DNA of 64,000 nt from Symbiodinium natans (Eukaryota > Sar > Dinophyceae > Suessiales > Symbiodiniaceae), in contig CAJNDS010000036.1 of assembly GCA_905221605.1 (NCBI GenBank), forward strand, positions 510,660 through 574,659, in the 5' to 3' direction. The notes beneath the pieces are model-generated. The model was given only the letters and a program-made list of their open reading frames with translations, did not search any database and was not told the DNA's origin. Both the position numbers and the translations under genes were made by a program. Of this stretch, positions 8,524-26,082 are shown piece after piece (within the stretch, counting starts at the first letter, position 1; each line of letters opens with the position of its first letter).

Positions 8524-8643
8524 CTACGTGATGATGCCGTGGTGGTAGAGGAACAGCCTCACGACCGCCTGGTGGCCACTGCGCTTCGCGGCCTGCAGTG
8601 GGGTCTCCCCTTCCTCAGCTCCGCGGGGTGCGCTTCCCACCAT
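8524..8643 (-). CDS. Ankyrin gene, probable last exon
   Basis: The frame contains EEGETPLQAAKRSGHQAVV then RLFLYHHGIIT and TAG: one nearly complete ankyrin repeat. The TAG lies inside CACGTAGGTT, which could instead be a splice donor. The final 23 bases are repeated downstream at 7323 and 7134. Confidence 0.65.
   Translation of the reverse strand: MVGSAPRGAEEGETPLQAAKRSGHQAVVRLFLYHHGIIT

Positions 8644-26082: not shown

Follow-up and report, generated by a model that had tools for sequence, protein, structure and literature searches.

The window, by which we mean the whole 64-kb stretch of DNA analysed (G000:C36:510660-574659, on contig 36 of a eukaryote assembly of 759 Mb in 2543 contigs), carries on its minus strand, between positions 8524 and 19374, an ankyrin-repeat gene of which 14 exons were placed. 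Joined together, the exons encode continuous ankyrin repeats and end in TAG; in the order of transcription they lie at 19300-19374, 18643-18701, 17881-17941, 14465-14506, 12970-13041, 12467-12528 and 12045-12122 in the first half of the gene, and at 11525-11568, 11172-11263, 10755-10805, 10468-10565, 10176-10224, 9477-9524 and 8524-8613 in the second. Four of the exons matched ankyrin proteins by tblastn, and ankyrin families were found in Pfam; the tblastn search with ankyrin located exons in the window only. A first-pass annotation of this DNA had named ten exons in two split genes. Four of these exons (11172-11263, 12045-12122, 17881-17941 and 19300-19374) were confirmed, those at 21996, 23231 and 26009 were not, and the second split gene could not be confirmed.

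Splice sites were placed without RNA, from the reading frame and the ankyrin consensus, in this one gene only. The model provides 12 introns with both ends fixed; the stretch from 17881 to 14506 and the 5' end of the gene were left out, and the donor assigned to exon 17881-17941 is tentative. The 12 donors, placed by frame, comprise six GC, six GA and no GT, and all 12 acceptors, placed in the same way, read AG|G, a count which, like the AGG counts given below, is partly circular because the sites were placed by the ankyrin consensus. These frame-inferred introns therefore have the ends of dinoflagellate-type spliceosomal introns, namely GT, GC or GA donors with an AG|G acceptor. The earlier proposal that the telomere-like repeat itself supplies a GT donor, as G|GTTTAGGG, finds no example among the 12. 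When such a donor was tried by hand at exons 11172-11263 and 12045-12122, the ankyrin frame was broken at both.

The gene is embedded in a great quantity of telomere-type heptamers. Exact counts in the window are 654 for TTTAGGG and 575 for CCCTAAA, where simple arithmetic gives a chance expectation of about four each, and 121 tracts qualify as interstitial telomeric sequences, that is, as tandem telomere-type repeats away from the chromosome ends. Across the whole genome three tandem copies of TTTAGGG occur 1,185,204 and 1,184,385 times on the two strands, compared with 41 and 33 for the reversed control. We also used a wider sample of 274 kb, made up of the window and 21 other 10-kb stretches (L009-L029) picked at fixed offsets on chosen contigs, a choice that is not strictly random; tract cover in these 21 stretches ranged from 0 to 25%, with a mean of 10.6%. 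The invasion is patchy, because three of the 21 (L013, L014 and L025) carry no telomere tract. Separately, the window holds imperfect long tandem repeats of the GTGTGCGTACGGTGCGCG type at 7529-8374, whose direction flips across about 7900-7980.

The orientation of the heptamers at the intron ends was determined in end zones of 150 nt from the donor or acceptor, or half the intron where it is shorter than 300 nt. In the last 150 nt of the 12 ankyrin introns CCCTAAA occurs 69 times and TTTAGGG once, both read on the sense strand, as are all heptamers at introns and elements below; in the first 150 nt there are 42 copies of TTTAGGG and eight of CCCTAAA. Counted by intron, with one mismatch allowed, CCCTAAA dominates the 3' end in 12 of 12 and TTTAGGG the 5' end in nine of 12, the exceptions being the donors of exons 10755-10805, 10468-10565 and 10176-10224. 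The first exact TTTAGGG lies 5-68 nt into the intron in six of nine introns measured; the remaining three either lack an exact copy or have it at a distance of 286 nt. The earlier statement that each intron opens with TTTAGGG and closes with CCCTAAA thus holds fully for the closing end but only in part for the opening one. That the tracts are oriented non-randomly relative to the splice sites, as had also been proposed, was borne out: 24 of 28 tracts of at least two heptamers follow the rule of TTTAGGG in the 5' half and CCCTAAA in the 3' half (permutation p = 0.0002), and the flank polarity of telomere-type repeats at introns is confirmed. The intron at 12529-12969 (minus strand) obeys the rule in full, with a GC donor, a TTTAGGG tract near its 5' end, a CCCTAAA tract near its 3' end and an AG|G acceptor. 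Farther than 150 nt from both intron ends only four of seven tracts fit, and five of these seven share one intron; the long intron of 1423 nt at 13042-14464 (minus strand) carries tracts of either direction, placed centrally and in its second half, with TTTAGGG at relative position 0.71. In four of the 12 introns the tracts of at least two heptamers are of CCCTAAA alone. The preference appears to be weaker at the 5' end than at the 3' end, although neither the contrast by intron (zero of 12 exceptions versus three of 12, p = 0.22) nor the nine of 12 TTTAGGG-dominant 5' ends taken alone (p = 0.15) is significant.

The same arrangement was sought independently of any gene model by taking tracts of at least three heptamers and classing the gaps between neighbouring tracts as RF, FF, FR or RR, where F is TTTAGGG and R is CCCTAAA. 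Among gaps of 70-150 nt, the exon size here, the window and the 21 stretches gave 78 RF, 27 FF, 26 FR and 23 RR, and the RF count compares with a mean of 39.1 and a maximum of 55 in 2000 trials in which tract labels were shuffled within each stretch. The core GC content of the islands in RF gaps is 0.588, against 0.557 for FF, 0.528 for FR and 0.513 for RR, and their open frames exceed those of FR (p = 0.0005) and RR islands (p = 0.011), with no significant excess over FF islands (p = 0.12). Given the excess of RF gaps, their GC-rich cores and their open frames, the CCCTAAA-island-TTTAGGG arrangement is non-random and the islands are exon-like. Pfam searches of the RF islands matched five ankyrin families, with at most two members each, and one other family weakly (E 0.0046), in 148 of 178 segments scanned (the two best per island, from 322 open segments); no match was found in 148 of 237 segments of the other islands (again the two best per island, from 371 open segments), a test with too little sensitivity for exons that encode some 30 residues. 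The putatively coding RF island at 21996-22087, one of those named in the first-pass annotation, contributed two segments to the first of these sets, in which only the ankyrin families and the one weak other family were matched. The flanks described there, CCCTAAA to the left and TTTAGGG to the right at ten coordinates, were found at eight as RF gaps of 86-130 nt and at 26009 as an RF gap of 579 nt, but not at 42706, where TTTAGGG tracts stand on both sides of the gap and CCCTAAA occurs on the left as single copies (42472 and 42606).

The 274 kb also contain recurrent short inverted-repeat elements of about 95-150 bp, which we grouped into families A to I, some of them interrelated; families E2 and F have at least the copies listed, and each family would run to thousands of copies if the sample is representative. 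One ankyrin intron, at 10566-10754 on the minus strand, is a copy of family A: it has inverted ends, these ends lie 2 nt from both splice sites, and a CCCTAAA tract (sense) has been inserted into it. Its inverted-end score is 26, compared with a maximum of 17 among 132 mismatched intron-end pairs. It is the one intron of the 12 whose sequence is shared with other copies nearly up to both splice sites, as expected of an introner; in the other 11 no sequence shared with other copies up to the splice sites was seen. Family A copies of 100-112 bp lacking a tract occur at L029:2933-3032, L023:2321-2431 and L024:3133-3244, with a partial copy in L012, and the copy in L021 (5765-5929) has a tract inside and both element ends present. 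On the plus strand of the window a family B copy at 30606-30796 is split by a CCCTAAA tract (about 30673-30753), around which its two halves align, and intact copies lie at L011:680-783 and L018:8953-9055. Further interrupted copies belong to family C (L018, 7343-7454) and family G (L016, 3386-3540). In all, five copies, namely A in the window and in L021, B in the window, C in L018 and G in L016, hold a tract internally while tract-free copies exist elsewhere. Other copies of families B, F, H and I are truncated by TTTAGGG, CCCTAAA or degenerate tracts; in two tandem family F copies at 7155-7414 (minus strand), included in a tandem duplication of about 189 bp at 7135-7411, a TTTAGGG tract in the sense of the element takes the place of the left part. 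Both family A tracts occupy the right-hand part of the model, but the one in the window reads CCCTAAA and the one in L021 reads TTTAGGG, so the elements do not set tract direction; CCCTAAA tracts occupy the right part of the window B copy and the L018 C copy and the left third of the L016 G copy.

These copies bear directly on the view, put forward in the first-pass annotation, that the tracts serve as terminal inverted repeats for an intron-making element, inserted whole as a TTTAGGG...CCCTAAA unit. Most introns do have the two tracts in that order, and short direct repeats can be seen at intron boundaries, such as GCAG|GA, |GCCT, |GAAG and |GAA, although these matches of 3-6 nt, present at some ankyrin introns, were picked by eye without a control and are partly forced by AG|G. 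Against this, in the five copies the tract is internal to an element that has other ends of its own, and tracts begin as far as 68 nt from the donor. Masked comparisons of the 274 kb revealed no common intron body beyond the element families and tandem repeats, an inverted repeat hidden beyond the tracts was at chance level in 56 consecutive island pairs (11.05 versus 11.02), and similarity between an intron's own ends beyond the tracts was clear in only one of the 12 introns. We therefore regard the tracts as very unlikely to be the ends of such an element. The earlier interpretation is partly supported, in the flank polarity and in the potential pairing of many intron ends, but its mechanism mostly is not; the likelier course is a secondary invasion of introns by the tracts, at least one of these introns having been made by an introner. 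Candidate target site duplications, TCAA and TCCA, were noted by eye at the flanks of family B. Elsewhere in the window, a tract-free region of 6.4 kb at 49655-56067 is flanked by 180-bp direct repeats that are 100% identical (49655-49834 and 55888-56067) and contains long minus-strand open frames, and none of the three frames scanned had a match in Pfam; it looks like a young mobile element. At 62440-62835, also on the minus strand, a frame resembles by eye the end of a copia-type retroelement polyprotein, with no match in Pfam.

Euglenids have non-canonical introns whose ends pair, and the intron ends described here would likewise be able to pair; they differ from the euglenid introns in having an AG|G acceptor and in that pairing is weak or absent in some of them. 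The first-pass annotation had suggested that pairing between the two tracts brings the splice sites together, and selection for such folding, which would join weak GC and GA donors to their acceptors, could keep both tracts in place. Folding of nine of the 12 introns supports pairing for most of them, since six gave end-to-end duplexes with z-scores of -5.6 to -9.5, but the other three gave +2.7, -1.1 and -2.0, that is, weak or no pairing. Moreover, because three of the 12 introns keep CCCTAAA dominance at the 3' end without TTTAGGG dominance at the 5' end, the tract at the acceptor is independent of that at the donor and pairing is dispensable. Selection for pairing is thus an improbable cause of the arrangement.

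The explanation that we favour, to which we give an even chance, is that the introns are partly derived from introners and were then invaded by telomere-type tracts, and that it is mainly splicing which sets tract orientation near the exons. Short inverted-repeat elements of the introner or MITE kind would have given rise to at least part of the introns, and the heptamer tracts would have entered elements and introns at a later stage. A sense TTTAGGG tract contains one AGG per unit, and also GT, whereas a sense CCCTAAA tract contains no G at all. As the acceptor is AG|G, TTTAGGG should be harmful near it, each unit offering a decoy acceptor just upstream of the true site, and such tracts would be removed; CCCTAAA, having no G and hence neither a GC, GA or GT donor nor an AG, should be harmless there. 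Near the donor TTTAGGG may be tolerated or even helpful, its G-runs adjoining weak GC and GA donors, which could account for the looser rule at that end.

The distribution of AGG is consistent with this explanation. The 12 introns contain four AGG in their last 98 nt and 71 in their first 98 nt, a difference due in part to the tracts themselves; with tracts excluded, a G comes after AG in three of 22 instances within the last 98 nt, compared with 75 of 180 mid-intron (Fisher p = 0.011). Eight of the 12 introns lack any AGG over a distance of 118 nt or more upstream of the acceptor, and in the other four AGG lies 6, 18, 22 and 23 nt before it, which contradicts a strict first-AGG rule. From this scarcity of AGG before the AG|G acceptor, we take a splicing filter to be the main cause at the 3' end, and we infer that it was selection that oriented the tracts. 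In the wider sample, FF and RR gaps of 70-150 nt (27 and 23) are no commoner than FR gaps (26), a pattern that points to strong polarity on the donor side as well; a strong polarity at the donor is not explained by the AGG argument and is the weakest point of the splicing-filter explanation.

The tracts themselves may have originated through telomerase or microhomology repair. If telomerase extended both 3' ends of an intronic double-strand break and end joining then closed it, TTTAGGG would be left on the left end and CCCTAAA on the right, so that the polarity would follow from 3'-end chemistry free of any selection. Head-to-head junctions of the kind that this would leave outnumber tail-to-tail ones by 14 to four within 10 nt when overlapping heptamers are counted, and by six to one, small numbers, in a stricter non-overlapping count over the 274 kb. 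Examples on the plus strand are TTTAGGG-TTTAGGG-A-CCCTAAA-CCCTAAA at 11970-12000, within an ankyrin intron, TTTAGGG-TA-CCCTAAA at 4834-4856 and TTTAGGG-TAA-CCCTAAA at 42871-42900. Tract borders often coincide with a CCC in the element, as in families B, C and G and in the L021 copy of A, and the insertion of telomeric repeats at breaks is described for primates and rodents in the part of the source available to us (PMC7215372). However, neighbouring TTTAGGG and CCCTAAA tracts are mostly not abutting, with a median gap of 283 nt, one-sided inserts are common, as in the introns with CCCTAAA tracts alone, and the polarity fades in mid-intron. We consider break repair an unlikely source of the polarity, if one to be taken seriously. 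The broader idea that telomerase is an active gene editor here, healing intronic breaks at both ends before they are rejoined, with telomere DNA as a main intron material, its direction policed by splicing, and some introns perhaps even born in this manner, is a speculation that we hold to be distinctly doubtful. Simple slippage, in which telomere-like seeds in elements or splice regions expand unfiltered, gains something from the motifs AGGGTACCC, AAACCCA, ACCCT and AGAACCC, which adjoin tract positions in elements, but polarity at exons does not follow from it alone, and the site of the tract in the window copy of family A has no CCC seed in three reference copies; it is hardly credible as the explanation.

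Dinoflagellate introners have reportedly been studied by Roy et al. in 2023. In the accessible portions of papers on Amoebophrya (PMC7789003), Symbiodinium microadriaticum (PMC9860276) and Prorocentrum (PMC10666404), dinoflagellate introners are described as short elements with inverted ends and direct repeats of 3-5 nt that function as introns, some of them with GC or GA donors. One ankyrin intron here is likewise an element copy, but the tracts are additional to the element and are not its ends. The survey in Symbiodinium microadriaticum, as far as its available text goes, discarded low-complexity candidate families, so that tract-rich introns could have escaped it (PMC9860276). The tracts resemble interstitial telomeric sequences, as these are presented in the available parts of three papers (PMC6410037, PMC7215372, PMC9498494), in being intrachromosomal telomere-type heptamers, and differ in that they average 10.6% of the 21 stretches, adjoin exons and have a fixed polarity there. 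The heptamer is identical to the (TTTAGGG)n of dinoflagellate telomeres, which concern chromosome ends, with no mention of intronic repeats in the accessible sections of the two papers (PMC11508785, PMC11453091). Together with the GC and GA donors, the AG|G acceptors and the introner-like families, this heptamer makes a dinoflagellate the most likely source of the DNA, short of proof. In a protein search that scored 7999 candidates, the 120 hits listed of 6731 included Durusdinium trenchii and Symbiodinium sp. CCMP2592, with no self match among those listed. In the literature searched, which lay mostly outside subscription journals and was accessible in part, we found no description of telomere-type repeats in dinoflagellate introns.

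If the arrangement holds genome-wide, telomere-type repeats would be a bulk component of genes, which touches on telomere biology, on dinoflagellate genome assembly and on surveys of introns from which low-complexity sequence is removed. It would then also turn the strand rule into a natural experiment on site choice by a spliceosome that uses GC and GA donors with AG|G acceptors, with every tract presenting decoy after decoy in one orientation and none in the opposite one.

A scan for the 21-mer of the spliced leader with up to five mismatches gave three matches, hardly above the one, zero, zero, two and two obtained in shuffles. Exact copies of TTTTGGCTCAAG, which we take to be the 3' part of the dinoflagellate spliced leader, occur at L015:657 and L017:5088 on the plus strand and at L026:3640 on the minus strand, three 12-mer relicts where about 0.03 would be expected by simple arithmetic.
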